Shown piece by piece: positions 7,116 through 42,930 of a stretch of DNA of 64,000 nucleotides. The stretch covers positions 29,760,001 through 29,824,000 of the forward strand of contig OX359246.1 in NCBI GenBank assembly GCA_947179485.1. Reading direction: 5' to 3'. Below the pieces are notes generated by a model, which saw only the letters and a list, made by a program, of their open reading frames with translations, searched no databases and had not been told where the DNA came from. Position 1 is the stretch's first letter, and each line of letters starts with the position of its first letter. Source of the DNA: Allacma fusca (lineage: Eukaryota > Arthropoda > Collembola > Symphypleona > Sminthuridae). The position numbers were made by a program, and so were the translations under genes.

Positions 7116-7945
7116 GATTGGTAGGTCCTTAAGGCAGTAAAAATACGCCAAGTGAGAGATTTAACTAAAAAGTCACTGAAAGTATTCTGCCAAGATTAAA
7201 AATTTCTTGAATCATAAGTTTAAAATAAAAATAATTTCCTCTGTATTTGAGTCCACAAAATGTAATGAAAACAAACCTGCGAACCTCACATTTACCCAGA
7301 AGTTTAGGAGACTGCAAAATTAGCACCTTCACATGGAAGTTAATAAAACACCGTCTTGACAAATGGACTCGTGCGTAAGCATTTAGATCTTATCTTATTT
7401 TAGTTTTTGGCTTTCAACCAAAATTTCAAAAGGAACAACAGGTACGTTTAAATCATAAACATGAACAAATAATTTATATCAGTAATTGTTACAAAAACCA
7501 GATGAGATAAATCCAGGAAAGTCTCTACTTAAATAAATATTTTCTGACATCAGTCTCCAAGAAAAGTTTGAACGTGACTTATTCGTTCGCTTCTGTGCGT
7601 ACAATATCACGTAAATGAGAAGCCTGTCTGCCACATTAGTTCTTTAATGGTGAATTCTCGAATGCTTTCCAAAGCTTCAAAAGAACATGATATTTATACG
7701 TATTCGGCCATTTATGTAGTATCCGTAAGTCTACATGAAACACAACATTTTTTGTAGCAACTGTAATGAATCAAAAACTATTTACAGGTTATTGACGAAT
7801 GTCGGAAATAATTATAAAGACTTAGTGGTCAACGCTGCTGATGGAATATGTATATATGAAGATAAATTAACTAGAGATAGAATTGAAAATTTATCAGTTA
7901 ATTAGACCCAAATCCGGGAGCTCGTAACCAAAGTATATTATGTGC
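7116..7945. repeat. 5'-flank block of receptor copy 1
   Basis: Non-coding. It shares landmarks with the 5' flanks of copies 2 and 3, for example TTTCTGACATCA near 7,541, 16,257 and 25,617, and the CTTAGTGG(T/G)CAACxCTG word near 7,825, 16,573 and 25,862. It probably holds the promoter of copy 1, but no individual site can be defended. Confidence 0.5.
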
Positions 7946-15730: not shown

Positions 15731-17656
15731 GGTTAACAATTCGCTGAAAGAATTCTGAAAAGATGAAGAACGTTTTAACTACATGATTTTGAAAACAGAT
15801 TTATTTCCTGTGTATCTGGATGCACAAAATATAAAGAAAATAAACTTGAAATTGACAATTGGTCAAGTTTTCAAGAATTCCAGTAGGCGACGAAAATAAA
15901 GCCTTGACACCGATAATTAAATACTGTCATGAAAAAATAGAATCATGTTTGTAAGCATTTATAACAATGTTATGTTAACTGTTATTTTAATTTAGTTTTT
16001 ACCTTTCAACCAAAATTTCAGACGGAACGTCAGGTACATTTAAATCACAAACCTACACATTAATTCAAACCAATAATTGTTACAGAATTCAAACAGAAAT
16101 AAATACAAAAATTTAATTTTTCACATTTATATTGGTTTCAGTGGAATCCATTTTTATTATTAATAGCAAGATTTCGAACAACAACAGTTGTTGTTCACAA
16201 AGTTGTTTTATCACAGTTACTGTGCTAAAAACAAATTTAAGTACTTAAAGAAATATTTTCTGACATCATTCTACAAGAAAAGCTGCAAATTTTAACGTAG
16301 TTTATTCGTTTACTTCTCTGCATACACAATCACGTAAGCGAGGTGTGTTTCTCACGTTAGTAGTTACTTCTGGATGGTCGATTCCCAAATGCTTTCCAAA
16401 GCCTCAAAAGATTGTCTTACTTGTAAGCATTAGTGCAATAATGTAGTATACTAAATGGGTATACCCATGTTTATGTTGACGTGAAACAGAGCTTGTTTGT
16501 AAACACTAAAGTGAATCGAAAATTAATCAAAGGGAACTAGCGAATGTCGAAAATAATAACTATTATAAAAGCTTAGTGGTCAACTCTGTTCCGGGAATAT
16601 AAATTACGATAAATCAGTAAGGAATGGAATTGAAAATTCAGAAGTTAATTACACCCGATTCCGGCTACTCCTAACTAAAGTAGTATGAGTAATTAAATAT
16701 TCGTCGCTCTGCAACGATTTATGGCATCACTAAATGGAAGTTGGTGTGAGGAGGCAACGCTAGTACTGTGTAACTCCAGAAAGTTTTAACTAATTAAATT
16801 CATTTATGTATTCTTCAGACATTTAGAGAGTTTATTTTGTAGTTATTGCAGGCATTGCGCATGGAGTCACAATTTTGAAAGTTTAAACAAAATCGGAAAA
16901 TGGGTTTCTTCGCTTACAATAAAAATATGTAACTCCGAGACGGTTTGGCCGATTGAGTTCGTTTATTAATGCATCCCAAGTTTTTGCGTGGTAATAATTA
17001 CGCTTACCGTTTACATAAAATTTAATGACGGATTAATGAGTTATTACATTCCTGCCCGTGAAAACCCGGGTAACTTCAAAACGGTTTGACCTATTCATTC
17101 AAGCACAAACTGACCTAACCGTTGTATCTTGAGACAATGTGTACAGGAGAATGAGTGTAAGGTGTGGCCAAATGCTTCCGGTACAAGGAGATTTCCGTAA
17201 TTACAGATGTGCAAACGTACAGACGTTACAAACTTATAAGGGCACAATAGCGCTGCCCATAAAAACTGTCTTGACACCCTGACGTATTTTCATTAAATAT
17301 TAAATAGGATCCCCCGTCAAATATTTCAGGTAATGAAAGTTTGGTTTGATTTTGTTATTGATGAACAAAAGAGGAGTATCATTGTACCCTTGTAAATTGT
17401 ATGTACGTGGAATGAAGTTAATACTGGAGTGAGTGTCTTTGCGGAAGAGTGAAAAATACTTCAGTATTTATCAGGAATATGGCAAGCTCATTTCCTTTTA
17501 ATGCTCAAGCAAAACGAATTAAATTTGTTTTAAGAGGTGTCAGGTATAGTAAGAGTAAGAATTAATTAATCATCATGCGAGCGGACATATGTATATTTTA
17601 ACTTACATAAGCGCAGAAATTTTCAAGCAATAAATGTTTTACTCCTGGTTGTATAG
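15731..17656. repeat. 5'-flank block of receptor copy 2
   Basis: Non-coding, homologous to the flank blocks near 7,400-11,080 and 25,200-26,735. It includes the motif CAAACGTACAGACGTTACAA at about 17,211-17,230 followed by CTTATAAGGGC. Regulatory function is possible but unproven; the similarity is equally explained by unit duplication. Confidence 0.55.
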
Positions 17657-17740: not shown

Positions 17741-20700
17741 GAAGCATATGGAAATAAAACTATGGATAAATGCACAAACAGTAATGATTATATTTGCCGG
17801 TGATAAAACACATCACTGCAGCGAACCTCTTTGTTACAGGAAAAAACATACTGGGTAATTAACCATACAAGGGAAAATGTAATAGTAATCAAGTACTATC
17901 TGTACTGTAGTGTATATAAAGTACTTAATAACTAATTATTAAAAAGTATTTGGACAATCAAGGTGCTTAAGTATTGGAATATTTTGCTTTGACTGAAAAC
18001 AGGTTATTAGACCGAAAGGGCATGAATATGTTTTTATTTAATGTGTTAGCACATGGCAATGCTGCAATTTCCTTTTTATTTTTATACACATGACCAACAA
18101 ATATATTATAATGAGTAAGCTCCCTTTTGGGAAATCCAGTGGCTTGAATGGTAATATGATCTTAATTTTCCTAAAATTTGAGCCGAAATTAAGTAAAAAC
18201 CTGGGTTCACTATGAAGATTATATGAATATAATAATATTAATATAATTATATGAATGTAATATTTCGTACTTCAGTTGGTTCTTTAACTGTTGAAATTAA
18301 AACTAAATATTGTAGTGTGTTTTGCAATCCGAATCAAGTTAGAAATGTAATTCTGTAAATTGTAATATCCAAATGGTAGGTAAACCATATACATCAAATT
18401 TTAAGTAACAGAAATGATTTTTTTGTAACCCTGAAATCAAAATGTTTTTCGAATGAATTCAAGAAGACAGCGAAAAAAACAAGACGTACATATGCATGTA
18501 CATACATAGACGAATAAAGTATTCTCCAAAAATAATCATTTAGAACTTGTGATTTAAGTTATTGCATTTCATCCACACAAGCTTTATGGCAACATCATTT
18601 CAGAGCGCACAGGATGTAAAAATAAATACTGGAAGCTCAGTAATTAAATGTTTACAGCAATTTGAAAGAAAACCCGGAAATCTAAATGTAAAACCTTTTA
18701 TGATTTTACTTCAGTGGATACAAAATTCACGCAAATGAGTTGTGTTCTTGTCACAGTAGTTTTTACGGATGGTTCATTCCAAATGATTTGCAAATTAAGT
18801 CTCGATAAAGAAAGCTCATATACTACTTGTCGGTGCTTTTATATACTGTCCATATTTAATATCCCATTCACATTCAGATTTATTAACGCGCTGAGAGCAT
18901 AACATTACATGTTTTTTTTCATGTTGAACACCGAACTTAATTAATGTGTCAGATTAAAAACCGTTATTTATTTGCATTGCATTATTAAATCGGGGGTTAG
19001 CATTACATACAATTGATCTGTACTCATTTTGTAACAACTGATCTCGCAGAAAGTTTTCAAAAACGATTGGTGTACAGATCTCTTGAATGTGTTTATTTTT
19101 TTTTCTGAAAGATATGGTCAGTAATTTATTTTGCTACTACTTTTTTTTCGTACATTCACATTCAAATATAATTAGTAAGATTGTTACAACAAAAACACAG
19201 AGGTCTTAGTAAACATCCACATATGAAATTGAATGTGTGTAGTAGTGAGTTCCAGTACTGTCTTTCACTACAGTACACGTAAATGATTTTTCAGCAAACG
19301 AGTTTTACTTTACAGTGGTCGAAGTTTAATTTTTTGCTTAGGTGTAATGTTTTCACAGAACATGCCCCTAATTCCAAAGTTACCCTTACCCTGAAGAATG
19401 TGTTTAGTTAATTTTATAAGAATTTTAGCTGGAATAGTTTTCTCTTTCCTGTGTTAGCATCCAGCTCATTTTTTCTAAGATATTACATGAGAAGATATGA
19501 AACAACGCTTGAATTAGTAAAACGGTTCCCAGATCATTGACTAACGTCACAAATAAATAATTACAAAAAGCTTATTGTTGTAAGCAAGACGCTTGTCAGG
19601 GATTCAGGTATATCAACAAGGTGCGGAGATAAAACGCCAGCATTTAATCACCCTGATTTTGACGAGATACTCCTGAATATGGAATAGGGTAGTGTGATCA
19701 ATTAAAACAATGTTTAGTCTCCAAGTATTGTTATTAAATATTCTTTACTTTCTACGTGAATGTTTCAGCTAATGAAAAGTTTTTAAAATTCTTTAGTATA
19801 CGAGTATTAAAACAATATTGCTCTATATCTTGTACATACGGCTGTTTCTGTTTATTGGAAATGAGAGCAACCTTGGAATTGATTTAATACGAGAGTGAAT
19901 ATCAAATGTCTTGAAAAGGGGAAATTATTTTCAATATTAAATTTTGCGAAAATATGCCTAGCTCAGCTTCTTTTAATTAACTAGCAAAATGGGTTAACAT
20001 AAACACAAGATTCCTGTAAGGTAGGAATAATAATTAACCAGCATGCGAACTGCCATTCATTTTGAGTTATGGAATCAAATTATACCAGAAAGTATTTTCG
20101 AATTTAATCACATAATATCAGGAAAATAGTATTGTAGGGGCGCATTGAAACAAGGTTCGAAATTGTGAGCGTCTCATTGTCTAGCTCTCTACATGTCTGT
20201 CTCAACGAAACTGTCGAAACGCAGTGTCACCAGACTAATCAAACGTTTAACTACGACACATTGGCTAATAAGTCGGAATCGTGTTGGTTTAAGTATCAAA
20301 AGATCTGGTCATGAATATGCCCCAAGTAAATTAAATGAGGTCACATAAAATTACATCACTCTTATTTAGTTTGTCTTCAAGTAATCAGTATTTTTTTGAA
20401 ACACTGTAGTTTTTAAATATTTTTATTTTTCAAATATATATGAAAAAATATTTGTAATAACTTAAACAATGCTATGAACTAGTAAGACGGTTCCCTATCA
20501 TTGACTAACATCATACATGAATAATTACACAAAGATTGTTGTTAGTAAGCATGACGCTTGTCGAGGATTCACGAATATCAACAAGTAATGGGGTTAAAAC
20601 GTTAACATTTAATTACCCTGATTACGACTACTCCTGAATATGATACATGGTAGTATGATAAACTAAAAAACTGTATTTATTCTCAAAGTATTTTTATTAA

Positions 20701-21649
20701 ACATTTACATTCTCGGTACATATTTTAACTAATGGAAAGTTGTTATGGTTTTCTAGTTGACGAATACTTTAGGACAATATTACTCTACTTCTTGTACGTT
20801 GTATAGTTGTTTCTGGTTAATTAAAATGTGGAGGACAACCTTGGATCGGCATTAATACTAGATTGAGTGTCAAATGTCCTGAAAACGGGAAATGATTTTC
20901 AATATTAGATTTAGCAGAAATATGGCTAGCTCAGTTTCTTATAATTAACTAGCAAAATGGGTGACATAAGTTAGAATCTAAAAATAAGTAGGATACAAGG
21001 TGTGTGAATGTTTTGCCCAGCTTTGGTCACCGGACTAATCAAACGTTTTACTACTGACACATTATCTAATAAGTCGGAATCATATTGGTTTCAGCATCAT
21101 CATATCTGGTCATCCATCTGGACTCACTTCAGTTTTGAAATATTTTTATTTTTTATATTTCCTAACGCGGCACTTTTTTCTGGCTTGTTTACCACAGATC
21201 TGACCGTTCACTAAAAAATGCATTTAACATGCAAAAAACATTTAACACGTAGCAGGGGAGGATTCTGAGTTACTTTCGAACAAGATGAGATATAAGTATA
21301 AGAACGGACAACTCGTCATTTAAATGTACCTCAATGACTCCGTTATACGTACATATAAAGGCAATGGTAAAAAATGGATGAACGGAAGTATCGTCCAATT
21401 TCTGTACTTCCAGCTTTGAATAACGTTTTTACAAGAATACTTGTTATAAATTAAACAAAAAATTGATGGAGTGACGCAGGTAGATTCGCATTTACACATT
21501 ATTCATAAATAATCATTAGATATGGTAGGAATGAAGGTATCTATACATTTTGAAGATTTACGATAATCCTTCGATACAATCACAATGGGATCACCTGTAC
21601 TCACGGGTGGATTAAAAAATAATGTTTACCCTGGACCTAAGCTTCAAAA
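17741..21649. repeat. Two tandem A-type flank blocks (A3, A4)
   Basis: Non-coding. The region 19,480-20,200 and the region 20,460-21,400 are clear duplicates of each other and of 3,030-3,990: all carry an AAGCTTATTGTT/AAGATTGTTGTT word followed by TCAACAAG, ACTACTCCTGAATATG and TTTTTATTAAA-type landmarks. The interval 18,380-18,890 matches 2,420-3,000. AT-rich DNA at 17,760-18,380 and 18,900-19,480 shows nothing recognisable. No gene is supported. Confidence 0.55.
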
Positions 21650-22885
21650 CAGTGCTGCGGACAAGTTCAAGTAATACTTGAGTTTTCAAGTCAAGTTCAA
21701 GTTCGGGTCAAGTTCAAGTATGCAAATTTTTTTACTTGAATCTGTCGGGTCAAGTTCAAGTACGTACTCGGCTTGACCATGACATTTTAAGACAAGTCAG
21801 GTTCGAGTACAAGTAAGGGAAATTTACTTGAACCTCAAGTCAAGTTCAGGGTCAAGTAATGGAAAGAAAAAACTTGACCATGAACTTGAGATTTCATGGT
21901 CAAGTTCAAGTAATTTTATATTGCGCATGCCATAAAGGACCGACGCAATTTCAAAATCACAACCCAATTTCATGTTGTGTTTAGGGTATTTTGTTTGCAC
22001 ATGTCATAAATCAAGCGACAAAATTCAAAATCAAAGTCCGTTTTATGAAGGTCTTGTTAACCAGACGTTGTTCATTGTTAGTTGTTGCAGCGACCTCTCC
22101 ATGAAACGAAAGAATTATCTTAATAATTCAGATTGTTGCTTAGAATTATTAGTTTCAACTTGTGCAAATAAATTTCAATATAAAATGAGCTTGAATGACC
22201 CTTTACAAAAAGTGTTTAATAAATAAGTAAAAACTAGTTTATTAAATATTAAATTAAGAGTACTGGTAATGCTCAAATAGGTATATGTATACATACATAT
22301 ATAAACATTAAATAAAACTTGACACCATGTAAAACTCGTCAGATATTCAGTGAAAGTCCGTTATAAGGGCTCAGCTTATAAGGAATGTATCGATATCAGG
22401 GATGCATTTGTTTGACCCCAACTTTCGTTTACACAATGCTTTAGACATTTTATAATGGAAAATTCTTTATAAATTGTAGTCAATTATATCGATCTTTTAC
22501 TGTATTCAATATGCGCTCAAAGTTGTCCTCGAATTGTTTTAAATAAACAATTTTACTAAAATTGTTATCTGAATGATTTGCCAAAACAAGTTCGACAAGT
22601 TATTGTGGCCATGTTTTAATTTTTGTGGTACTTAACTTGAATTATCAAGTTCAAGTCGCGTTCAAGTCATGGTGAAGTCAAGTTCAAGTCAAGTTTGGAA
22701 CTTTAACAACTTGATCAAGTTCAGGTCTTATAAAAGTTACTTGATTACTTGAACTTGACAAGTCGAGTAATTACAGGAACGCGAGTTATCAAGTTCAGGT
22801 TGTGTCTTGAAAGTTACTTGACGTTTCGTGGTCAAGTCAAGTTCATGGTCAAGTTTTGAAATTACTTGACCCGATCGCAGCACTG
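21650..22885. mobile_element. Non-autonomous hAT element, CAGTGCTGCG termini
   Basis: The inverted termini CAGTGCTGCG / CGCAGCACTG are flanked by perfect 8-bp duplications CTTCAAAA (21642-21649 and 22886-22893). About 250 bp at each end are almost entirely CAAGTTCAAGT / ACTTGAACTTG repeats, an imperfect giant palindrome. The middle (about 21,920-22,600) is ordinary AT-rich DNA with no recognisable transposase. Homologous DNA at about 4,660 lacks the element, so it arrived after the receptor units duplicated. Confidence 0.95.
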
Positions 22886-22893
22886 CTTCAAAA

Positions 22894-23260
22894 CATTTTT
22901 TGAGTGTTTCCCCGTGCAATTTGAGGGCTCTAATTAAATTTTTACCCAGGTCTAGCCAGGTTAGGTCACCTCGTAAAACAACCCTTGTTTATACTACTGA
23001 AAAACATTAATGAATAAAATAAAATAACAATTTCAATATGAACAATTATTTACGCTAGAATTCGCTATTCGCAAATTCGCAGTGTTGACCAAAGTTTCAG
23101 GCGTTAGTGCGCGAGACCTGTCTTTACGCACTGACCTAGGAATAGCACGTAATAAAGCCATGAATTTAATAGATTTTGACCAATTTATTTTATGAAAATT
23201 CATAAATAATTACCTCAACGCTAACAAACCAGCAATAATAGCACATTGGAACAACTAAGT
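22894..23260. repeat. 3'-flank block of receptor copy 3
   Basis: Continuation of block A4 beyond the hAT insertion. It matches 4,670-4,985 and 13,570-13,809 (GTAAAAC, CTGACCT and AATAGCACGTAA words). It probably contains the receptor 3' UTR. No separate gene is seen. Confidence 0.5.
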
Positions 23261-25175
23261 TCATCGAACTGTTTCACTTTGGATTACTAGCATTGTAAAT
23301 GTGAGAATTTGGCCTGCGAGCTATAAATAAAAATACATACCCAAAAATATAAAACAATTTTTAATTCAATTAAATCAATTTTGTGTGACTAGAAAAAAAA
23401 TTAGTCTTAAGCAGAAAAAAGTAAAGAATCTGCACTTACTCTACCGCTGACCGCTGGGGTGATACTTAAAAAGTGACCGCTAGAACTACCGTGAACTCCG
23501 TCAGATATATCCTTCAGGATTACACGCAGCTTGTAAATTGGAATCTCTAGAAGTAGGTTGCCTCTTAAGATTTTAGTAATCTTTCCACACTGCACAAAAA
23601 TAAAGACCTGCAAATAACGCATTAAACCTGATTGTGACCACAAGCGTGAGGTACGGCAAAATATTGCAATATTAAAATTTCATTTGGGATTTAGTCCTAA
23701 GAAACTCCTCGTTCAAATTATATCACAAGTGTGCATAGATATATTTCGATTTGTGAATTCTTGGAAGGATAAAAAAGGTATTGCGTCATGTCAAAACTCA
23801 ATGTTATCTCAATACAAGCGGGGATTCATTCTTTTTGAAAAATTTAGAAGGAATTTACCAAAATGCATACATCCGCTGGGGCTTTGTACATAATAATTAG
23901 GTCAAAGAAGGATAGCAGAAAACCAAATCTGGTAAAAATGTCCACATCCTGTCCCGTTAATCCCAATGAGTCGATATATTTCCGAGATGACAGGGAGTAG
24001 AAAGTGATACAAACGATGTAAAGCATAAGAGTCCACCAAGAAAGGTAAACGTTCTTTGTCCGCTGAACTTCTTTGAAACTCTCGTACAGTTTTAAAAACT
24101 GCATAAAAAAATACAGGCTTCATAAGATCCGTTCTAGCGTATGCAAACGTAATTTTAAATCCTAATTCCAGAGTCCATGAAAATTTGACCGTTACCTCTT
24201 TGGACGTCAGATTATCGCCCTCAGCTTTGATGAGCAACATGAACTCCTTTGTGATTAGATATGAAAATGTGAAAACAGGAACTCCGATCACATCTGCCAA
24301 GAATATAAATACAATAGAGTACATTTGCAAAAATATCACATAAATCTGTCCCGCAAACTTTAGGCCAGCATGATTCAGCACAAAAGAAGGAAAATAAAGT
24401 GGGACGAAAGCGGCACTATTTTCCAGAATTAACTTCAATTCCCAAAAGGGCGCTCCAAACAGCAACGTAACATAACGCAATAAAGCTACGAGTAAGCTGA
24501 TCTTCCACAGGAAGTAAATGCTTAGTATCTGCAATTTTTTACACTAATTAATCATCTCATCAATAACTGTTTAATGTTCTGGGATTGTTTTTTAAATTTT
24601 CAATTCAAAGCAAATTTAAAAAGTATTTTTTTTGCTTACACCACCACGACCTGTTGTACTCAATTTTCTTAAGCAATAATTATGTTGAAGCTCATGTACG
24701 AAACTGATCACTGCAGCTCGATTCACCCAATTGTAGTAGAACTGACATATGGAAAGAGAATAAAGACTTATGTTGTTGGCTAAAGCAATAAAAGCCAGGA
24801 TATTTGCTCCAGAGGCTCTTGTTGAAGAAGTTGCATCCTTAATATCCATACACATTTTCCAGCAAAGCGTTATTTGTATCAGAAGTAGCAAAGTCTGCAG
24901 ATGATTTAAATTTAAACAAAATTGTGGTATTATTGTAAAGTTTATCATATCTCAATCACTGAATCTCATAAAGACGAACTAAAATGATAACTGCGTTTGC
25001 TAACCTTTTTGACCAGAGAGCATCCCACGACTTCATACTGATTACCCCTTTCGTTCCAGCGTAATTTAAATGTGGAAATGCCGATACATGATGTAAAATT
25101 AATAACCAATGCAAATACAGTGATCAGAGGGTTTGCAGGTGGTAACTTTACGAGTTCGTTCAGCTCATACAGCAT
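23261..25175 (-). CDS. Gustatory-receptor-like chemoreceptor, copy 3 (intact, six exons)
   Basis: Exons 25175-25005, 24894-24640, 24528-24196, 24098-23859, 23589-23440 and 23320-23261 have the same lengths and phases as copies 1 and 2 and encode 401 aa with no internal stop. The strongest conservation with copies 1 and 2 is in exon 1 (STFKLRWNER, PANPLITVFA), exon 2 (RASGANILAF, QFYYNWVNR), exon 3 (LKLILENSA, GLKFAGQIYVIF, LITKEFMLLIKAEGD) and exon 4 (LYESFKEVQRTKNVY, LGLTGQDVDI). Exon 5 carries ILKDISDGVHGSSSGHF and exon 6 LTFTMLVIQSETVR, the Gr-like TM7 end. The start ATG at 25175 aligns with those of the other copies. A role in taste or contact chemosensation is inferred from the family; the ligand cannot be told. 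Confidence 0.82.
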
Positions 25176-26740
25176 GATAAATTGGTAGGTCCAAAAGACA
25201 AGAAACAATAGGCGCAGCCAGAGATTAAACTAAAAAATTCGCTGAAAATTTCTGAAAGGATGAAAAACTTCTTAAAAACATGAATTTGAATACAGATTAA
25301 TTTCCTGTGTATCTGGATGTACAAAGTATAAAGAAAATAAACTTGGAATTGACAATTGGTCAAGTTTTCACGAATTCAAGTAGGCGACGAAAATAAAGCC
25401 TTGACACGGATAATTAAATACTATCATAAAAAATAGAATCATGATAGTAAGTGTTTGTAGAACTTGTTATTTAAATTTAGTTTTTACCTTTCAACCGAAA
25501 TTTCAGACTGAAGGACAAGTACACTTAAATTACACACCTACACATTAATTCAAATCAGTAATGTTTACAGAATTCAGTGCAAAAAGAAATACAGAAAATT
25601 CAATGCAAAGAAATGTTTCCTGACATCAATCTACAAGATTTTTTTTCTTCTATGCATGCACAATCACGTAAATCAGGTGTGTTTGTCACGTTAGTACTTC
25701 TGTGAATGTTTCCCAAATGCTTTCCAAAGCTTCGAAATAGTGTTGTTTAAATGCATTAGTGCATTTATATATAACAAGTCTTTAAGTTATTTTTTGTAGA
25801 AACTGAAGTAGATAAAAAGTTAATCAAAGGTTATTGACGAATTCCAAAATAGTCACAAAAGCTTAGTGGGCAACGCTGCTCGGGGAATATACATTGCGAC
25901 AAATGAGCAAGACATAGAATTGAAAATGCTGAAGTTAATTCGACCCGATTCCGGGTATGTACTCGTTAAGAGAATTGTATGAATAATTTAATATTCGGCA
26001 CTTTGCAACGATTTATGACATCACTAAATGGAAATTGGTGCGAGAGGGCACCGCTAGAACTGTGTAACTCCAGAAAGATTTGACAAAGTGAATTTATTTA
26101 TGAATTTTTCAAGGATATATGCCTGCAGACTATACAGATAATAAGATTGAACAAAATCCAATAACGGCAACTGAATTTTCGAAAAACCCGAGTACTTCGA
26201 AAAAATTTGATCAAGTGAAATTATTTTGTAGTTATTGCTCATGGAGATACAATTGAAAAAATCGTAAAGCTGGTTCCTTCGTTTACAATAAAACTGTAAC
26301 TCCGAGACGATTTGGCCCCTGTTTACACAAAATCTAATGAGGAATGTTTGGTTATTATAGCGCTGTACACGGAATTACAGAGCGCAGATGTGCAAACGTA
26401 CAGACATTATACAAGCGTATGTATAAAGGCGCTAGCGCTGCCCAGAAAAACTGTTTAGACTCCCTGGCGTATTTTCATTAAATATAAATAATCTTTAATA
26501 TTCCCCGTCAAATATTTCAGGTAATGAAAGATTGGTTTGATTATGTTATTTATAAATACACAAGTAATATTATTGTAACCTTGTATATTGTTTGTTTGTG
26601 AAGTGGAATTAATGCTGGAATGAGTCTTTCGCAACAAATAATCAACATTTCTCAGGAATATGGCCAGCTCATTACCTTTTAATGATTGCTCAAAACAGAT
26701 TAAATTACATTTAAGAGGAGTCACGCATAGTAAGAGAAGA
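25176..26740. repeat. 5'-flank block of receptor copy 3
   Basis: Non-coding, homologous to the flanks of copies 1 and 2. It carries TGCAAACGTACAGACATTAT at about 26,391 and TTTCAGGTAATGAAAG near 26,515. It ends abruptly near 26,735, where similarity to the other blocks stops and the transposon-rich region starts. Confidence 0.55.
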
Positions 26741-27497
26741 ATTTGAAATTACACGAGACTTACCTGGAAGTTAAAGTTTGATTATAATTATGTCGTCTCC
26801 TGTTGTCCCCTCTGTAAAAGGAAACTTACAATTCACCGTTTGTACCATATGAAAAGGCTCATGCATGTGTGTGTACCCTATCGATAGATATTTTCAAGCT
26901 AAACACATTGGTTACCGCCTGTCTTGAATGCCCAATATGAAGCGAGAGAAGTTTTGAACCTTACTTTAAGTATTGATTAAATTACCTCTGGGCATAATTT
27001 TATTTTTGTTAATGTTAAACCGGACAGATTACATAGACATGAAAAGATACTGGCTAATTGTAAGTACACAAATTTCTCTTGATGGTTAATTTGCAGTAAA
27101 GTTAGAAGTAAGCGTTTTTTCAACTGATATTATTTTACATATGTTACAATTTTCATTTGAAATTTATTGCTTCAGGGAATTTTCAGCTAGACCTTGTTAT
27201 AAATTAATTCCAGCTGGACAAAATACAATTGTTGTAATCGAAAATTAATGCGTTAAAATTAATCTACAAGTTTTGATTTTACATTACAAAATTAAGTTAA
27301 AATGAACAAAAACGTCAATTTCAATAATTTAAAACTGGATTACGTGATAACATCATAGAACAAAACTGTTTCCACAAAAGGCTTATATCTGGCGACCACT
27401 AACAGTTGATACTTAAGACCAGAAACCTTGTTAGCTGCAGACACCGGTGTTTCGTCCTATTTGGGACTCTTAAAGAAAACGTCAATCCTTTCCATGT
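26741..27497. other. Non-coding stretch, nothing recognised
   Basis: AT-rich DNA between the receptor array and a transposase relic. Neither transposon ends nor conserved exons were found. Confidence 0.4.
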
Positions 27498-28852
27498 GTG
27501 TCAAGAGTTCGCACAAATTTAGAAGAAGATCTGGAGTTCATTAGGGATCAGCATATTACAGAAGCTGACACAACAGTAGCTTTGTCATTAGTAAAAAGGT
27601 GTGCTAAACTGACTTGTCACCATATTGTTACAGACGATTACGAGTGCATTGAAAATGCTGGTGATTTTAATAATGTAACAAAATCATGTTATCAATATTT
27701 ACACGCCTGCAGAGAATAGAATTGGAAATGTTATGTTAAAAGCCATACATTATATTTGAAAATTTAAAAAGATAATGCCGAAGATCTTTCATATGTTGAC
27801 GACGACGGCGCTATTGTCAGACAAGTTTATGACAACGACGAATATGTCTCGACGAATCGAAAAGCTACAATGTTGAAATGTATTCAGGAACATCCTGGGT
27901 GGAGTTGGAAAACCATTTCGTCGAGATTTCCAACGCTTATGCACCAGTCTTACCAACAAATTTGGCAAAAACAAGTAGAAGAAGGGGGACAAAATGGAAA
28001 AACTTCGCCAACTTGATAGCATGGTTTACGATAATTTCCAGAAGCTCGCGAATCCGAGTCATGCAAAATTGTACATGACTTGGATATACGACGTTGGGGA
28101 ATTTAGGTTTCCCGTGTAATCCTGAATTTTGAATTTAAAGAGTCCGCGACCTGGCTCCTAAACTTTAAACGAAGGCATGGTATTGGGTCTCAGAAAATCC
28201 AGCGAGTTGTTAAGAAGCGTGAGGTTGTGGCACAATCCAAAATAGAGTCGTAAAGTGATGATTATCGGCAGCAAATGAAGAACGTCTCTTTTGAAGAATT
28301 TTGAAGAATTTTGAACCAAATTTTTTATGGTCCATTAATCAAGTCAGAGTAGAATACGAACTCATTGGTACGCAACCATTGCCTTTCAAACGACAGAGAG
28401 TGACACATTGGTTTGGGTTTTCACCAAAAATCGAGCAACGCACTCCTACACTATACAGTCTATAATGCGTTTGGCCGGTGAAATAGTTGGGGATTTTTAT
28501 GCTTGCCTTCAAGAAACAGAGAGAAAAAATGAGCCCCGGCGTAGAGGCATCCATAATACCAACACCAAATTTGACAGTAACATTTAGCGCTTCCGGCAAA
28601 CTGACAAAGTCGCACGTGGAACACTTTTTGGAGAAAGTTATAAAACCAAAAGTATTCCAAGACTTTCTTTTCACATTTGATCACTGGTCAGCACAGTTGG
28701 ACCCCATATTATACTCCAGCAGATTTGGAGTCAATGGTGTACGTACTTGTACAACTGTGGTAGTTCCCAAAAAATGCACCTCGAAACGTCAGGCCCTTGA
28801 CACTGGTGTCAACAGGAAAATAAAGTCACTCATACGGGAAATGTATAATTAA
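27498..28852 (+). pseudogene. Decayed Tc5/pogo/jerky-like transposase relic
   Basis: Pieces of a DDE-type transposase in shifting frames. A first helix-turn-helix-like part reads ATMLKCIQEHPGWSWKTISS (about 27,867-27,926) followed by a QIWQKQVEEGG piece. A CENP-B/Tc5-type DNA-binding part follows near 28,139 (ATWLLNFKRRHG, KIQRVVKKREV). A catalytic-core part lies at 28,330-28,480 (VEYELIGTQPLPFKRQRV) and a C-terminal core at 28,490-28,850 (FSASGKLTKSHVEHFLEKV, then FTFDHWSAQLDP, where FxxDxW holds the second catalytic Asp, and VVPKKCTS). At least four frameshifts or stops break it. The order of parts fits the jerky/Tigger/Tc5 type, recognised from memory of that family. The N-terminal 73-codon frame at 27,498 is not recognised. 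Confidence 0.7.
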
Positions 28853-30645: not shown

Positions 30646-33312
30646 TTAGTAAAACCAATTATTGGAGATAAATGAGCTAATGTTTGCATCATTATATAAC
30701 GAAAGGGTGAAAATAAATGATAAATAATGTGTGTGACAAACTCGGTCGTAAATGGATAATTTCTTTGCTGCTTTTAATTGGTTTGAATCATCGGAATCCT
30801 GGGAACCAGTAGATGGTTCGTGTTCGTAATTGACTTCCGTCTGTTTGGTGTTTTTCAAAATTTTTAAGGCTGCTTGGCAGGCTAGGTTTATAATACGTGC
30901 CAGACATCTCACTCTCTGATCGTCACAGTTCCATTCAACTTCCTGTAAATTTTTAAAATTATGATGTAAATTATTACGACGATGTTATTATTATAACTTA
31001 ATTTGAAAAACAATTCTACCCGTCATTTTATAACTATGAATATCTCGCTGGCTAAATGCAATAAATAGTAAAGCTACTATACACATTGTGAAACCAGTTT
31101 AAATAATTAAATTGAAATATAAACTATTATTTACCGGCCGTAGCATTTTTGCGAGTTCCTTTAACATCGTATTCATATTTGAAGTGTTGTCGCTCGTTAT
31201 GGCGAGGAGCATAGTAGTAATACCATAGGACACCAAAACGTCGTAGACAGATTTGGCTAAATTTGCCCCTTTGTGGGATCCCTTCAATATGTCAAAATCC
31301 AGAACTACTTGCTGGTAATTCCAATCCGAATCAATGTAAGTTGCCAAGATGCCATGAAAGGATTTTCCACACCTTGATGACCAGCAGTCAACTACCAGTG
31401 AAATAGATCCGGATTGAGACTGGTATCAAGATTAAACGTCACACTATATGTAGCAAGTTCTCCAAACCAAATTGATATGTAGTTATCAGAAATAGTACCT
31501 GAAGTTTCCGTTTAATCTCGGCCCGTTTATCTTCGTACATGGCTTGTATTTTGGCTTTAATTGTTTCACGCTGAGGCATCTTTACCGGGGGTTGTTTTTG
31601 CAAAAGAAACCAATGCTCTAAATGAATCTTTCTCAACTATGCTGAAGGGCTGATTTGTCATAATGATAAACTCGCCAAGTCGGGACATAAAATCTTTTTC
31701 CGATGCTCCCTGCAAAATTATTTAAAAAATAACAAATGAGACAATTTTCATTCAGTTTAAAATATTTTTTGTATAACATGATATTTATTTATTGATATAC
31801 GATGACGTTGCAATTACTTTGCTAAATGCAGCTAATATCGGATTCTTGAAATCACCATACTTTTCCTTTTGGAAATAGCTTAGCTTGTCAGTGTGCTGGC
31901 TTTTTAAATGTTTCATTAAATTTCCAATACTAGATCGCGGTTCTTTTTTGAAACTTTTTCTGTAAATATTAAATTTATGGAAATCTGTTTTTTACAATTA
32001 TTACCAGTAGTAAATCTACAGTTACATGAGGACACCATAAATATAAGAGAATTAATAGTCTACTAATATACATATTTCCACTTACTTGCAATAGTTACAC
32101 GTGTATTTATCAGTCTCCCTGCAATAAGTAAAATGGTTGTGTGCTACTGATTTTTTCACCGGCTTACAGGGTGGCTTGATTTAAATCACTTGATTTTTTT
32201 CAAATAAATCATTGATTTAAAACAAAATTGACTCTTCAACTTTTACGGTTAGGTAAAATTTATTTTACGTCTCCAAACGTTGTAAAATGTGCATTTTTTT
32301 GATTTTACAAATTTTTGGTATAAAACCATTTTGGATTTTGATAATTTTCAGAATAATTTGGGCACGTTGATATATTGATTATCTGTCAAGCTGTCAAAGT
32401 GCCATAAAATTTGGATATGAATGAGTTTTGAAGTATTGTATAATACAGATACTAGAGCTTCTGCTGGGGACAATTGTTATGCCCCACAGAAGATTCCGCC
32501 TCGTTTCAAAATCCAGGGAAATAACACGGAGACAATATTTATATTCCAAAATTGTCTCGTCCCTAACAGAAACTCAGTAACTACAAAAACATTCCAATAT
32601 CCAATCTTTCTAAAAGAGTACCGTTTAAAGTGGCAAAATTTGACTGTGAATTTTGCATTTTTTAAATGTTACTCTTGTGCGGAGATATATTCACACGACT
32701 TGTTTAAACGGTATATTCCCAATTTGCAAATAATTTTTCTGTCCCAACATACTCTACCATCCCATCCCGAAACACTGTATATGCACACACTGTGCACATT
32801 TTATATAATTACATATATATAAATATATTTATGTATACATAAATCAATAAAAATCCAAATGAGACAGCTGGTATCTGTCCTACACAGTGTTTGGCTTCAA
32901 AGACAACTTAATTCCAAATTGTTACAATATAAAAAATACTGTTTATCTTTGGAATTGGCCTTTAACCAGCTTTTTATTTCACATTAGGTAGCTGACTTGC
33001 CTTTGTAATTTTCTCTCAATACATTTGATTGATTGTTCAAGTTTCATTGGTGTCAACAGTGCACAATATTATTAGGAATATTAAAATCCAAAAATTTGTA
33101 TGGAAATTTTATCGTACTATAAAATTTTGAATTTAAATCATCAAATATTGATTTAAATCAAAACAATCCGATTTAAATCAAATAAATCAGATTTATTTGA
33201 TTTTTTTCAAAAAAATCAAAAAAATCAGCAACCCTGCCGGCTTATGAGCTTGTATTGAGTCATCTGCACTTTGATTTAATTCGTCAATGCTTTTTGCTCC
33301 TTCTTCACTCAT
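30646..33312 (-). pseudogene. hAT transposase with BED finger, broken by insertion and frameshift
   Basis: Minus-strand, multi-exon. Exon 1 starts at ATG 33312 (MSEEGAKSIDELNQ), is split by a 1.07-kb hAT insertion at 32,167-33,236 and resumes with HNHFTY, TDKYTCNYC, ending at donor 32,096. Exon 2 (31959-31818) completes a BED zinc finger (CxxC, then MKHLKSQH). Exon 3 (31709-31499) holds SRLGEFIIMTNQPFSIVEKD and, after a one-base frameshift, PPVKMPQRETIKAKIQAMY. Exon 4 (31419-31135) holds the hAT core: VVDCWSS with the first catalytic Asp, LKGSHKGANLAKSVYDVL and AITSDNTSNM with the second. Exon 5 begins at 30942 (RCLARIINLACQAAL, where Arg replaces the usual His). The hATC dimerisation domain is missing. 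Dead element of the hAT superfamily; motif order is clear. Confidence 0.85.
32167..33236. mobile_element. Non-autonomous hAT element, CAGGGTTGC-type termini, inside a transposase exon
   Basis: The ends CAGGGTGGCTTGATTT and the inverse of CAGGGTTGCTGATTT are bounded by perfect 8-bp duplications CCGGCTTA (32159-32166 and 33237-33244). The subterminal parts are runs of GATTTAAATC palindromes. Internal open frames are not recognised. Removing it with one duplication copy rejoins exon 1 of the hAT transposase in frame, which proves the insertion. Related termini end at 362. Confidence 0.93.
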
Positions 33313-33849: not shown

Positions 33850-34483
33850 GGTAAGTTCACATGTATCCTGTAAAGGTAAAACTGGGCGTACGGGAAATGT
33901 GACCATAGTGGTCTTGAGCATGAAGTATGCCATAATGCATGTGTTTGTGGTGTTGCTTGCCGGCTACTACCCGGTTGACGGGAGATATCGGGAAAATACC
34001 CGGTTTTCGGGAGATCCGGAATATCTTCGGAGCTACACGTCCGATTTCCGTAATGTAAAGTGATCGGGATCTAGAAATGAATGCTGCTTAGTAGTTTTGA
34101 ACGATTTTTGAAATTTCAAAAAACTAGGTATAAAATTTTGAAAAATAATTTTCAAAATTTTGAAATTTAATAAAAATTTTTGCAGAGTGAACAAATGTGT
34201 CGGGTAAACTGGATGTGTTTGTGCACTACGGTATAAAAGTACATGTTAGTCTCAGTGTGCCCCACAAATTGTATCCAACAAATTGTGATTTAGCACTTTG
34301 TGAACCAATAATTAGGTACAAAACATAAACAATGCATTTCCTGCGTAAAAACACTACATTGCATAACTAAATTGTACGTTGGAATGCATCCATACAAATT
34401 ATTTATTTTTTAAATTTAACATAATAAACTGGAGACATTATTCAATGGTAAATAAAATAATGTAATGATAAAAGAAATAACGT
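33850..34483 (+). repeat. Left terminal inverted repeat of the 8.2-kb element
   Basis: 634 bp matching the inverse of 41,407-42,035 at an estimated 96-97 percent with a few small indels (hand comparison). It includes a CCGGTTTTCGGGAGATCCGG-like GC island and a palindromic AAATTTTGAAAATTATTTTC region. It ends inside at AAAGAAATAACGT. Confidence 0.9.
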
Positions 34484-34559
34484 TACACAATGTAAAAGTG
34501 CTGTGAATACAAAAATATGTTATAAGCTTCAAAGCAGTTCTAGTATCTTGAACCATTTT

Positions 34560-37500
34560 TTGTACTCCTTTTTGTATGTTTGCAAATACCACATCTGGTT
34601 GCGTTGTTCCGTTTTCGGACACCGGAACGATAGGTGCAAACAAATAAGGAATGTAAAGTTCAGAACCGGGCTTCTTTGTTTGTACGTAAGATTTGTCTAT
34701 TTGCTTCGCAAATATTATTTTAAGTGACTGATCGCTTCGAACATTGTAACCACAGCTGGGTCCAATGCATCGACAATATGAAAATACTCCTCATGAAAGG
34801 CACACAAGAATGACAATTTGAAAAGGCGTCATTTTACGAATTTAACAATGCTAGTTAAGAGTATTAGAGTAGAACCAATGATTTATATTATAACAAACAT
34901 TGTGGTTTTATACCCGAGAGCAGTAAATACAAGTAATGAAAGTAAGTCATGTTAACTGTTTTTATTACTCATCTTGTCCAAACAAGGTAGAAGTTAATTC
35001 CAGCATGGTTTTTACTTTTATTATTTATTTTTTGGGCAGTAATATCACACTTAAACTGTTGTTTGTATACTGTTCTAACAAAGAACTGTCATGTAAACGA
35101 TTACAGAATGTTAATTTTAAAAGTGAAACACTATTTCAAAGCGCTAGTATAAATAACACTTGTGATAGAAAATGCTTGCTCCAAATAGTGATGACAGTGC
35201 ATAACCCAAATTTTCACTCGATGGAAAACAATTCATTAGTCATGTATAAAACCTATTAAGATTTTCGAGTAAAAGAGAAAGTGTGAAACTTGTATACACT
35301 ACTTATCTATTCTGGGAGGGAGACAAGTCACTGGCAAATGCAGTACCCAATGTTTGGTGCAATGAAGTATTCCAGATGTAAAAATACTAATTTTTACATA
35401 CGAAATACATGCATTGAAAATGTATAAATGACTGTTTCCAGTTTATGTATTTCTGGTTCGAGATGTTCCTGCAGCAAATGAATGCAACATCAGTTAGTAC
35501 TTGTAATTACCGGTTACCAACAATGACGGCCAAATTTAGTTGTACAGAAGTGAGTGCAACGTTCAGGAAAGATCGTCGTAAATATTCACATCATTTAATT
35601 CAGAGCTGCTCCAGCAGAACGTCCACGATTTGGTTACACGTGATCCATGATATCAGTTTCCCCTTTTGAATTTATTCCAGAAATTGAATTTAGTAATAAT
35701 GGGTAGGACAAGCAAGACATTATGCCGCAATCCCTTTGTCAAGAAAGGCCACTCGAAAACACAAGGACAAAATCTATTATTCGTTGAACAACGCGAATTG
35801 TTACAGCAACATTACCCAAGCATAACTGTCAGTTTATACGATCAATATTGCGTTGGTTGCTACAAATCTGTTTTAAAATGGCTACCACTAGGAGCAAGTG
35901 ATACTTCCCCAGCAGGCCAGATTGATCAACACGAATCTATTCAGGGACCTGGGTTAAGTGTTGCAGGCACTGGTGAGGAAAAATCTCCTCCTCGAAAGTT
36001 ACCGAAAATCTTACAAATTCTTTGCCCCTGCGTGTAGTATTGCAGGGACTGTGTCTCAACCCGAAGCAGCACAGGGAAGTGCGGACGCTTGTTTAGGATA
36101 CCGAAAGTTCCTGAAACTGCATCATCGTCCTTAGAAAGTTTGGAGGACCTTCCAGAAGACTCTTCGCATCCTGCAACGTCAGCTTCAAGCTCTTACATTG
36201 ACTCGGAAATCCAGGTAAAAAAGCTAACCACAAAACTCACCTCTTTACTTCAGACTCCCATAAAGAAAGGAAGTACTCATCACGGTTACAAATTACAAGA
36301 AAAGTATGCAAAATTGGAGGACCATCTCAAGCAACGATTCAAGAAAGTAGCGAAAGCCGACCTGCAGCTTACACCGAAACGAACATGTTCTGCTTGCGAG
36401 GAGCTGTTCCTGGACCTTGCAAAGGTATTCCCTTATCTTAAAACTAGAAGAGAAAAGTATCTCAACCTAACATCTGTACCAAAGTTATTCACCATTGAAG
36501 AAATTGAACAGACGTTTCTATGCACAACATACGAATCCCGCAAAGCTAAAGAATACAAAACTAAATACGGGGCTTTTTTTGCCCCGCATCTTAATTTGAC
36601 TGGAGATCGACTTCCACGGCACGTGGTAGCTGCAGTAGTTGCTTTCTATTTAGACGATCGAAATAGCAGAAATTTGCCTGGGATGCGGCAGACAGTAATG
36701 GTGAGAAATGAAGAAGGAATTCGAGAGGCCCAGAATAAGAGACTCGTTTATATGAACCTCACGGATCTTCACGAAGAATTTAAAAAAGCCTACCCGAAAA
36801 TCACGGTTGGACGTACAAAAGTTTCACTACTTCGGCCCCGTCAGTGTGTGTGGCCCGGTCGTCGTGGTCATCACAACACCTGTGTATGTATAATTCACAA
36901 GAACTTTAAGTTACTTTGCACGGCTCTTGGTTTAATTCAGACGACATCAATAAATCTTAGCTAAATTCTTTGTGATCCAGCTACACCGGAGTGTTATCTA
37001 CGATTTTGTTGTTTCTGTCTAATTGAAAGTAAACTTACTAATCTGACGGCAGGATGCGGAGAGGATAACATTGAGTTCTATCAATGGGAGTCTATTGATC
37101 GAACCGAAATACGGAGGTATTCAGAAAGTTTAGATGTGTTTACGTCTACTTTGCAAGAGCAACTAACAAAATTTGCTGCCCACGATTTCATCGCAAGAAA
37201 ACAAGGTGAACACGTAGCTGTACTGAAGCAGAATATATCTGAAGAATATAATAGAGCCATCTGTCATGTGGATTTCGCCATTAATTATTCATTTGTTCAT
37301 TAGGATGACGTCCAATCCACTCACTGGAACCCCGTCCAAGCAACGATAAATCCTTTTGTCTTGTATTACCGAAGTACGTTTAAATCATACGTCGTAGTAA
37401 GCGACCATATGGAGCACAACACAACTGCATTCCATGCATTTCTCCGCAAAGTTATTCCCATGATCAAGCAAGACTTTCCTCACATCACAACGCTGCACTT

Positions 37501-37658
37501 TGTGTCGGATGGAAGCGGAGCCCAATATAAAAATTTCAAGTTGCTTGCAAATATTGTTCAATTCAAGGAGGAGTTCGGTTATAATGTTACTTGGACGTAC
37601 ATGGCTACCGCTCATGAAAAATCAGTGTGTGATGGAATATCTGCTGTTGTAAAACGTG
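34560..37658 (+). repeat. Tandem unit 1 of 3,099 bp inside the transposon
   Basis: Repeated immediately at 37,659-40,757. The unit starts within a non-coding part and ends within the transposase frame. Both boundaries and the junction share the 6-bp word TTGTAC (34,560, 37,659, 40,758), the signature of a microhomology- or replication-slippage-mediated duplication. Only one base difference was noticed between the units (A at 37,170, C at 40,269; Lys to Thr). Confidence 0.93.
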
Positions 37659-37732
37659 TTGTACTCCTTTTTGTATGTTTGCAAATACCACATCTGGTTG
37701 CGTTGTTCCGTTTTCGGACACCGGAACGATAG
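35699..37732 (+). pseudogene. Transposase-like gene, first copy (three in-frame stops, 3' end lost)
   Basis: From the ATG at 35,699 the frame is identical to the second copy, including TAG at 36,035, TAA at 36,962 and TAG at 37,301. At 37,659 the tandem junction replaces the 3' third of the gene by the start of the next unit, so the frame runs only a further 25 codons to 37,732. It lacks everything after VVKRVV and is certainly defective even if the stops were read through. Confidence 0.85.
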
Positions 37733-40700
37733 GTGCAAACAAATAAGGAATGTAAAGTTCAGAACCGGGCTTCTTTGTTTGTACGTAAGATTTGTCTATT
37801 TGCTTCGCAAATATTATTTTAAGTGACTGATCGCTTCGAACATTGTAACCACAGCTGGGTCCAATGCATCGACAATATGAAAATACTCCTCATGAAAGGC
37901 ACACAAGAATGACAATTTGAAAAGGCGTCATTTTACGAATTTAACAATGCTAGTTAAGAGTATTAGAGTAGAACCAATGATTTATATTATAACAAACATT
38001 GTGGTTTTATACCCGAGAGCAGTAAATACAAGTAATGAAAGTAAGTCATGTTAACTGTTTTTATTACTCATCTTGTCCAAACAAGGTAGAAGTTAATTCC
38101 AGCATGGTTTTTACTTTTATTATTTATTTTTTGGGCAGTAATATCACACTTAAACTGTTGTTTGTATACTGTTCTAACAAAGAACTGTCATGTAAACGAT
38201 TACAGAATGTTAATTTTAAAAGTGAAACACTATTTCAAAGCGCTAGTATAAATAACACTTGTGATAGAAAATGCTTGCTCCAAATAGTGATGACAGTGCA
38301 TAACCCAAATTTTCACTCGATGGAAAACAATTCATTAGTCATGTATAAAACCTATTAAGATTTTCGAGTAAAAGAGAAAGTGTGAAACTTGTATACACTA
38401 CTTATCTATTCTGGGAGGGAGACAAGTCACTGGCAAATGCAGTACCCAATGTTTGGTGCAATGAAGTATTCCAGATGTAAAAATACTAATTTTTACATAC
38501 GAAATACATGCATTGAAAATGTATAAATGACTGTTTCCAGTTTATGTATTTCTGGTTCGAGATGTTCCTGCAGCAAATGAATGCAACATCAGTTAGTACT
38601 TGTAATTACCGGTTACCAACAATGACGGCCAAATTTAGTTGTACAGAAGTGAGTGCAACGTTCAGGAAAGATCGTCGTAAATATTCACATCATTTAATTC
38701 AGAGCTGCTCCAGCAGAACGTCCACGATTTGGTTACACGTGATCCATGATATCAGTTTCCCCTTTTGAATTTATTCCAGAAATTGAATTTAGTAATAATG
38801 GGTAGGACAAGCAAGACATTATGCCGCAATCCCTTTGTCAAGAAAGGCCACTCGAAAACACAAGGACAAAATCTATTATTCGTTGAACAACGCGAATTGT
38901 TACAGCAACATTACCCAAGCATAACTGTCAGTTTATACGATCAATATTGCGTTGGTTGCTACAAATCTGTTTTAAAATGGCTACCACTAGGAGCAAGTGA
39001 TACTTCCCCAGCAGGCCAGATTGATCAACACGAATCTATTCAGGGACCTGGGTTAAGTGTTGCAGGCACTGGTGAGGAAAAATCTCCTCCTCGAAAGTTA
39101 CCGAAAATCTTACAAATTCTTTGCCCCTGCGTGTAGTATTGCAGGGACTGTGTCTCAACCCGAAGCAGCACAGGGAAGTGCGGACGCTTGTTTAGGATAC
39201 CGAAAGTTCCTGAAACTGCATCATCGTCCTTAGAAAGTTTGGAGGACCTTCCAGAAGACTCTTCGCATCCTGCAACGTCAGCTTCAAGCTCTTACATTGA
39301 CTCGGAAATCCAGGTAAAAAAGCTAACCACAAAACTCACCTCTTTACTTCAGACTCCCATAAAGAAAGGAAGTACTCATCACGGTTACAAATTACAAGAA
39401 AAGTATGCAAAATTGGAGGACCATCTCAAGCAACGATTCAAGAAAGTAGCGAAAGCCGACCTGCAGCTTACACCGAAACGAACATGTTCTGCTTGCGAGG
39501 AGCTGTTCCTGGACCTTGCAAAGGTATTCCCTTATCTTAAAACTAGAAGAGAAAAGTATCTCAACCTAACATCTGTACCAAAGTTATTCACCATTGAAGA
39601 AATTGAACAGACGTTTCTATGCACAACATACGAATCCCGCAAAGCTAAAGAATACAAAACTAAATACGGGGCTTTTTTTGCCCCGCATCTTAATTTGACT
39701 GGAGATCGACTTCCACGGCACGTGGTAGCTGCAGTAGTTGCTTTCTATTTAGACGATCGAAATAGCAGAAATTTGCCTGGGATGCGGCAGACAGTAATGG
39801 TGAGAAATGAAGAAGGAATTCGAGAGGCCCAGAATAAGAGACTCGTTTATATGAACCTCACGGATCTTCACGAAGAATTTAAAAAAGCCTACCCGAAAAT
39901 CACGGTTGGACGTACAAAAGTTTCACTACTTCGGCCCCGTCAGTGTGTGTGGCCCGGTCGTCGTGGTCATCACAACACCTGTGTATGTATAATTCACAAG
40001 AACTTTAAGTTACTTTGCACGGCTCTTGGTTTAATTCAGACGACATCAATAAATCTTAGCTAAATTCTTTGTGATCCAGCTACACCGGAGTGTTATCTAC
40101 GATTTTGTTGTTTCTGTCTAATTGAAAGTAAACTTACTAATCTGACGGCAGGATGCGGAGAGGATAACATTGAGTTCTATCAATGGGAGTCTATTGATCG
40201 AACCGAAATACGGAGGTATTCAGAAAGTTTAGATGTGTTTACGTCTACTTTGCAAGAGCAACTAACAACATTTGCTGCCCACGATTTCATCGCAAGAAAA
40301 CAAGGTGAACACGTAGCTGTACTGAAGCAGAATATATCTGAAGAATATAATAGAGCCATCTGTCATGTGGATTTCGCCATTAATTATTCATTTGTTCATT
40401 AGGATGACGTCCAATCCACTCACTGGAACCCCGTCCAAGCAACGATAAATCCTTTTGTCTTGTATTACCGAAGTACGTTTAAATCATACGTCGTAGTAAG
40501 CGACCATATGGAGCACAACACAACTGCATTCCATGCATTTCTCCGCAAAGTTATTCCCATGATCAAGCAAGACTTTCCTCACATCACAACGCTGCACTTT
40601 GTGTCGGATGGAAGCGGAGCCCAATATAAAAATTTCAAGTTGCTTGCAAATATTGTTCAATTCAAGGAGGAGTTCGGTTATAATGTTACTTGGACGTACA

Positions 40701-40757
40701 TGGCTACCGCTCATGAAAAATCAGTGTGTGATGGAATATCTGCTGTTGTAAAACGTG
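37659..40757 (+). repeat. Tandem unit 2 of 3,099 bp inside the transposon
   Basis: Second copy of the unit, running into the only complete 3' end of the coding frame. An open frame at 34,936-35,259 (107 codons in frame, repeated at 38,035-38,358) and one at 35,445-35,669 lie upstream of the transposase frame in both units. They show no recognisable domain and are probably chance frames. Confidence 0.9.
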
Positions 40758-41452
40758 TTGTACGACTGGAGAGCCTGAAACCTGGAGTTTTTATTCGTAA
40801 TGTTGATGAAATAGTAACCTACTGTCAGAGGTACTGGATTGAAAAAACCACAATGGATGTTGTCCTTGTTCGGGTAGAAGAAGTCATGTCAATACATGAA
40901 GAGCTGGAACACAGGTATTCGAAGGCAGTGAGGTTAGTCGGGATCAAAGAAATGCACTCTTTGCAGCCAACCGATGAAAATGAATTTATTGTGAAAAGGT
41001 ACTCGTCTTCACCAACTTATGAAATATTTCGTCCAGTCCCAACTGCTTCCAGTGTGACATCGCACCCCAACATTGGCGTGGGTAACTACGTCGCCTTTCT
41101 GGTTCTTTTCAACTTCCAGGTGGAAGTAGTCGACGACATGGAGTCATTTCCCGAGGAGGTTGTCATCCGTTGCATGAGAAGATTTGGACGTCAAAATAGT
41201 TTCAAGTGGACTGAAATTGAAACAGTTAAAAGAATTCCGCTGAGACTTGTTATCCGAAAAGTCAACGCCCCCTCGTCTTCATCCACCGGAAGAGTTTACA
41301 AGTTAGAAAATTTAGAGTACACATCCATTGAGGCGTCCACTGCATTATTACTTAAACAACTTACCTCTAAACAACCATTAACACATAAGTTGCAGTACCT
41401 TGTTAGACGTTATTTCTTTTATCATTACATTATTTTATTTACCATTGATTAA
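38798..41452 (+). pseudogene. Transposase-like gene of unassigned family, full length, three in-frame stops
   Basis: One reading frame of 885 codons from ATG 38,798 to TAA 41,452, interrupted only by TAG 39,134, TAA 40,061 and TAG 40,400; no frameshift. Parts in order: an N-terminal CxxC (DQYCVGCYKSVLKW), a Ser-rich linker, a CxxC before a helical region (RTCSACEELFLDLAKVFP), then AAVVAFYLDDRNSRNLPG and YMNLTDLHEEFKKAYP, a CVCIIHKNFKLL Cys-His motif, a four-Cys cluster (CDPATPECYLRFCCFC), HVDFAINYS, HFVSDGSGAQYKNFKLLANI and AHEKSVCDGISAVVKR. The Asp residues in VDFA and VSDG and the final DG are candidate RNase-H-type catalytic acids. The last 46 bases lie in the right inverted repeat. Expression would need readthrough or correction of the three stops. 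Confidence 0.75.
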
Positions 41453-42035
41453 TGTCTCCAGTTTATTATGTTAAATTTAAAAAATAAATAATTTGTATGG
41501 ATGCATTCCAACATACAATTTAGTTATGCAATGTAGTGTTTTTATGCAGGAAATGCATTGTTTATAATGTTTTGTACCTAATTATTGGTTCACAATGTGC
41601 TAAATCACGAGTTGTTGGATACAGCGGGGCACACGAGACTAACATGTACTTTTATACCGTAGTGCACAAACACATCCAGGTTACCCGACACATTTGTTCA
41701 CTCTGCAAAAATTTTTATTAAATTTCAAAATTTTGAAAATTATTTTTCAAAATTTTATAAGTTTTTTGAAATTTCAAAAATCGTTCAAAACTACTAAGCA
41801 GTATTCATTTCTAGACCCCGATCACTTTACATTACGGAAATCGGACGTGTAGCTCCGAAGATATTCCGGATCTCCCGAAAACCGGGTATTTTCCCGATAT
41901 CTCCCATCAACCGGGTAGTAGCCGGCAAGTAACACCACAAACACATGCATTATGGCATACTTCATGCTCAAGACCACTATGGTCACATTTCCCGTACGCC
42001 CAGTTTTACCTTTACAGGATACATGTGAACTTACC
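41407..42035 (-). repeat. Right terminal inverted repeat of the 8.2-kb element
   Basis: Inverse of the left repeat, differing by scattered substitutions and small indels. It contains the end of the transposase frame including its stop codon, so the left repeat also carries an inverted copy of that gene tail. Confidence 0.9.
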
Positions 42036-42639: not shown

Positions 42640-42930
42640 CAAATTCTGATTCACCCCAAGTTTTGGTTCGATTATGTTACCAAGTTTCGTTCTGGTGAAA
42701 TCAAAACATACTTGGTGAAACCTGCGCGATTTCTTATTGTCAGCACTAGTTTCTCAAAAATTAACACCAAGTTTGTTTCTGTCGGAGTCAAAACCTACTT
42801 GGCGAAACCTGCGTGATTCCTTGTTGTCAGCGCCAGTTTCTCAAAAATTAGTACCACCTACGTTGCAGGTACATTTGAAACATACTATGTACAACTTTCA
42901 TGATTGTCACCACCAGTTTGTGTTCAATTA
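42640..42930. repeat. Short tandem repeat array, ~87-bp period, about three units
   Basis: CTTGGTGAAACCTGCG (42,711) recurs as CTTGGCGAAACCTGCG (42,798), and the words GTCAGCxCxAGTTTCTCAAAAATTA recur with the same spacing. A third, more diverged unit follows to about 42,930. Non-coding. Confidence 0.7.

Follow-up and report, generated by a model that had tools for sequence, protein, structure and literature searches.

A single forward-strand frame runs from an ATG at 38798 to a TAA at 41450 to 41452 in the 64-kb window, the whole stretch of DNA that was analyzed. Its translation gives 884 codons plus the terminal TAA, or 885 residues and stops. The frame (38798 to 41452), which we annotate as a transposase-like gene, is interrupted by a TAG at 39134 to 39136 (stop 1, which according to a splice-site scan may be intronic), a TAA at 40061 to 40063 (stop 2), and a TAG at 40400 to 40402 (stop 3), the last of which falls between HVDFAINYSFVH and DDVQSTHW in the translation. 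A sequence-only reading of this DNA had reported the 885-codon frame, its in-frame TAG, TAA, and TAG, and the lack of TGA among them, and we reproduced all of this at the same positions. Its description of the 2.65 kb as free of indels holds for frameshifts, of which none is seen; in-frame or compensated indels lie outside what the frame shows.

Three stops in 884 codons compare with 44 to 58 in each of the other five frames and with about 48 expected from the stretch's own dinucleotide composition (P of ~1e-17). In a scan for frames of at least 400 codons with at most three stops, the 20 longest listed all lay in this frame or in its tandem copy. Cut at the stops and the candidate splice sites, borders that were chosen after the data had been seen, the frame has no stop in segments of 91, 208, and 349 codons, two stops in a segment of 201 codons, and one in a segment of 33. 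The few stops, set against the 44 to 58 elsewhere, mean that the frame is a real gene, past or present. Its ATG has an A at -3 and a G at +4, and an AATAAA on the same strand (41483 to 41488) starts 31 bp after the terminal TAA.

The gene is flanked on both sides by inverted repeats, as in a terminal inverted repeat (TIR) DNA transposon. Self-comparison and alignment of the two arms placed the left TIR, which starts with GGTAAGTTCACATG, at 33850 to 34494 on the forward strand and the right TIR at 41396 to 42035 on the reverse strand; the gene's final 18 codons and the AATAAA fall within the right arm. The arms are ~645 bp long and 96% identical, with 13 mismatches and 6 gap events, and their outermost 105 bp are identical. 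With up to three mismatches allowed, the 64-kb window has no match to the first 27 bases other than at the element's two ends. The sequence-only reading did not mention these TIRs, which fit its description of the frame as transposase-like. No target-site duplication was found directly at the matched ends, which are flanked by AGTG and AATT. The tetranucleotide TGAA lies 3 bp outside both matched ends, the one match among 16 offsets tried.

Several other features lie in the same window. A 124-aa open frame on the reverse strand (34416 to 34790), at the element's left end, has no Pfam match. Just outside the right end, 42679 to 42905 contains an 87-bp unit twice in head-to-tail order (83% alike), and a weaker 28-nt match occupies the position of a third copy. 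Further upstream, large blocks are repeated at 72 to 86% identity (3000 to 7300, 12700 to 17600, and 18500 to 27000; for example, 13732 to 15731 matches 23182 to 25176 at 81%, and 5531 to 7283 matches 23570 to 25348 at 80%). The reverse-strand open frames in these blocks appear hydrophobic and receptor-like by eye, those scanned have no Pfam match, and the blocks are possibly a tandem cluster of chemoreceptor-like genes. A fragment at 28487 to 28852 resembles a transposase relic (DDE_1 match below the curated cutoff, E value of 0.014), and another at 31099 to 31425, with no Pfam match, looks hAT-like by eye only. Rfam and tRNA scans of the 64-kb window gave no matches.

A tandem duplication inside the element

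The duplication, which had gone unnoticed in the sequence-only reading, emerged from self-comparison on the forward strand. Unit 1 (34560 to 37664) consists of upstream DNA and a copy of the transposase-like gene that starts with an ATG at 35699, includes the same three stops, and is missing its 3' part; unit 2 spans 37659 to 40763. The duplicated part comprises the first three quarters of the frame and the DNA upstream of it. The units differ at one position in 3,105 bp (37170 A, 40269 C) and are thus 99.97% identical; both begin with the hexanucleotide TTGTAC, and the second also ends with it. Subtracting the duplicated 3,099 bp leaves an element of 5,087 bp. The near-perfect copying of the same stops means that they count as one observation and not two. 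With the stops common to both units and a single base difference in 3,105, the stops are probably older than the duplication.

Could the stops or the duplication be errors of assembly or base calling? Two 99.97% identical units joined at a 6-bp match are a possible product of misassembly. However, both units carry identical stops, so either the same errors must have arisen in both or one unit must itself be an artifact, and we regard such errors as a very unlikely origin of what is seen here.

The encoded protein and its candidate relatives

The label transposase-like rests on the architecture of the element and on motifs known from other proteins. The N-terminal C-x-NP...GH...C-x2-C, the CVC-x-IH-x-N, and the DFAxNY...xDDVQSxHW motifs resemble those of a widespread, uncharacterized family of transposase-like proteins in animals, as do SDGxxxQYKN and H-x-K-x-x-CDG. 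Profile searches with the four pieces between the stops gave nothing convincing (best E values of 0.12 in Pfam, 0.089 in NCBIfam, and 0.025 in PHROGs), and among PDB sequences there was no match at an E value of 1 or below for 40403 to 41449 or for 39137 to 40060. The piece at 40403 to 41449 had no relative among the viral contigs and genome contigs searched and no tblastn match among phages and plasmids. Degenerate patterns for motifs of such animal proteins hit 40 loci in viral contigs and 6 bacterial loci in genome contigs; tblastn of the four pieces against the 40 viral loci gave a best E value of 2, and none of the 40 translations appeared related by eye. A second degenerate motif pattern matched no stretch.

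AlphaFold, run without an alignment, returned two poor models with mean pLDDT values of 34.6 and 47.5. Residues 105 to 234 of the longer model are predicted to form three strands followed by a helix and two further strand-helix pairs, which is at most a hint of an RNase H-like core. Eukaryotic DDD/E cut-and-paste transposons with TIRs likewise combine inverted ends with one large gene, and our protein has two motifs with a candidate Asp, DFAINYS and HFVSDG. The Asp of the second stands directly after a predicted strand in both poor models, and that of the first precedes a short strand by two residues in the longer model and falls outside any strand in the shorter one. In contrast to the DDD/E group, the element shows no confirmed profile, sequence, or fold match and no clear target-site duplication.

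Two known superfamilies were compared as well. Kolobok ends follow a 5'-RR and YY-3' rule (PMC9587614), and the GG...CC ends of our element would fit that rule. However, provided that the TIR match extends exactly to the element's borders, the flanking AGTG and AATT differ from the TTAA duplication of Kolobok. Kolobok transposases carry a C/DxxH motif between the second D and the last E; no (C/D)xxH follows VSDG in 40403 to 41449, although the residues taken as catalytic here are only candidates. The amoebozoan examples of Sola2-type elements have 4-bp, AT-rich duplications, an 888-aa transposase, and ends of 12 to 21 bp (PMC3627910). The 884 codons and the tentative 4-bp TGAA found here are similar, whereas the ends of ~645 bp contrast with 12 to 21 bp and TGAA is unlike the AT-rich duplications (PMC3627910). 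In the literature searched, which included PMC3627910, PMC5199201, and PMC9587614, we recognized no paper describing this family.

Three stops, none of them TGA

Why does a gene with so few stops have any? One possible answer is that some or all of the protein continues to be produced, with stop 1 removed by splicing and stops 2 and 3 spliced out or read through. The frame shows no frameshift, and in-frame splice candidates exist for all three stops. Our scan found five in-frame GT-AG excisions for stop 1, two for stop 2, and two for stop 3, counts that may be at chance level. Two donor-like GGTRAG sites lie in the gene, at 39072 and at 39800. From the first, a possible 102-nt intron (39072 to 39173, forward strand; CTG/GTGAGG to CACAG/GG, with slashes at the junctions) keeps the frame and removes stop 1, and four alternative acceptors pair with this donor in the scan. 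The excised stretch, with one stop in 33 codons, is too short to tell coding from noncoding DNA.

From the second donor, excision of 39800 to 40402 would remove stops 2 and 3 and end exactly at TTCATTAG/GAT. We rejected this intron as implausible: the interval is open in frame (two stops in 201 codons versus 10.9 expected; P of 0.001) and contains the Cys-rich and DFAINYS motifs. Because it is open in frame, 39800 to 40402 is very likely coding. The candidates for stop 3 that start from a donor at 40305 would remove coding-like sequence as well. Readthrough, which the sequence-only reading had listed among its explanations, found no positive sign for three stops scattered in this way. Taken together, we consider continued production of the protein very unlikely. 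A more specific version, in which the frameshift-free transposase gene with the same TAG and TAA stops belongs to an amplifying, tandem-duplicated element that obtains its full protein through splicing or readthrough only, seems to us highly improbable.

A second answer, also raised by the sequence-only reading, is that TAA and TAG encode Gln in the element itself or in the lineage from which it came. It had noted that all three stops could be single C-to-T changes of Gln codons. This is true by definition, since a single C-to-T change of CAA or CAG yields TAA or TAG in every case; the argument reduces to the lack of TGA and adds nothing beyond it. It had also expected random decay to produce a TGA. 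We enumerated each single stop-making change in the present sense codons under three transition/transversion weights, and the TGA share of such random changes is 27 to 28%. Three random changes would therefore avoid TGA with a probability of 0.38 to 0.39, and two with a probability of 0.52 to 0.54. The probability that three random changes would all hit Gln codons is far lower (0.001 to 0.015), and the decay reading would have to be revised if relatives carried Gln at each of these positions.

What else would speak for such a code? Animal transposase-like relatives presumably have a Gln before DE or DD at the position of stop 3, and if only TGA is read as a stop, the frame stays open as far as 42028, and the 192 codons that begin at 41450 lack TGA. 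From the composition of the window, 3.8 TGA codons would be expected there (P of ~0.02 by our own arithmetic). However, the same 192 codons hold seven TAA or TAG codons (including the terminal TAA), as noncoding DNA would, compared with three in the preceding 884. In a code with TAA and TAG as Gln, neither codon would terminate and both would be frequent among Gln codons; here the gene ends in a TAA shortly before the AATAAA, and 37 CAA or CAG codons stand against 3 internal TAA or TAG codons, or 3 of 40 if these are read as Gln. The fit is poor, and we consider recoding extremely improbable. Nothing in the sequence indicates an unusual genetic code.

Probable decay of a transposon with long inverted ends

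Very probably, the locus is an ordinary TIR transposon, decayed and partly duplicated, whose transposase-like gene has acquired nonsense mutations and whose duplication is recent or artifactual. Very recent C-to-T damage was among the possibilities named in the sequence-only reading, and recent inactivation of a transposase-like gene agrees with the long TIRs, the gene that runs from ATG to TAA, the nearby AATAAA, and the otherwise open frame. We hypothesize that a cut-and-paste DNA transposon of ~5.1 kb (without the duplication) resided in a eukaryotic, probably animal, genome, with inverted ends of ~645 bp around one transposase-like gene (ATG at 38798, TAA at 41450). While active, the element would have been mobilized by the transposase binding to its ends. 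After its last transposition, ordinary substitution would have introduced two or three nonsense mutations into the gene, the number depending on whether stop 1 is intronic instead. Later, the 3,099-bp stretch would have been duplicated in tandem via the 6-bp match, or by the assembly, and the element would now be inert unless the transposase of another copy serves it.

The two ends provide a clock for this decay, on the assumption that they were identical at insertion. Scaled to the gene, the 13 substitutions between the TIRs would correspond to about 27 substitutions and 1.4 stops, with probabilities of 0.17 for at least three stops and 0.41 for at least two. On the same basis, the gene should hold about 12 indels under free decay, given the six gaps, and no frameshift is seen (P of ~4e-6, or ~3e-4 by our own arithmetic if only four of the gaps are independent). 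The sequence-only reading had argued that random decay should also bring frameshifts, and with arms that differ by six gap events the lack of any in 2.65 kb favors it on this point. The absence of frameshifts is the sole result at odds with simple free decay. Possible reasons are a clustering of the gaps in the inner part of the repeats, older differences between the ends, or selection that acted on the gene until recently; the mismatch in indels thus suggests that part of the TIR difference may predate the last move or that selection on the gene ended only recently.

A long frame broken by TAA and TAG only resembles recoding, and its meaning here is mostly that of a caution. In this gene, more than one in three sets of two or three random nonsense mutations would lack TGA, and one event may look like two when a near-identical tandem copy is present. 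Beyond this, the element may serve as an example of a TIR family with very long ends.
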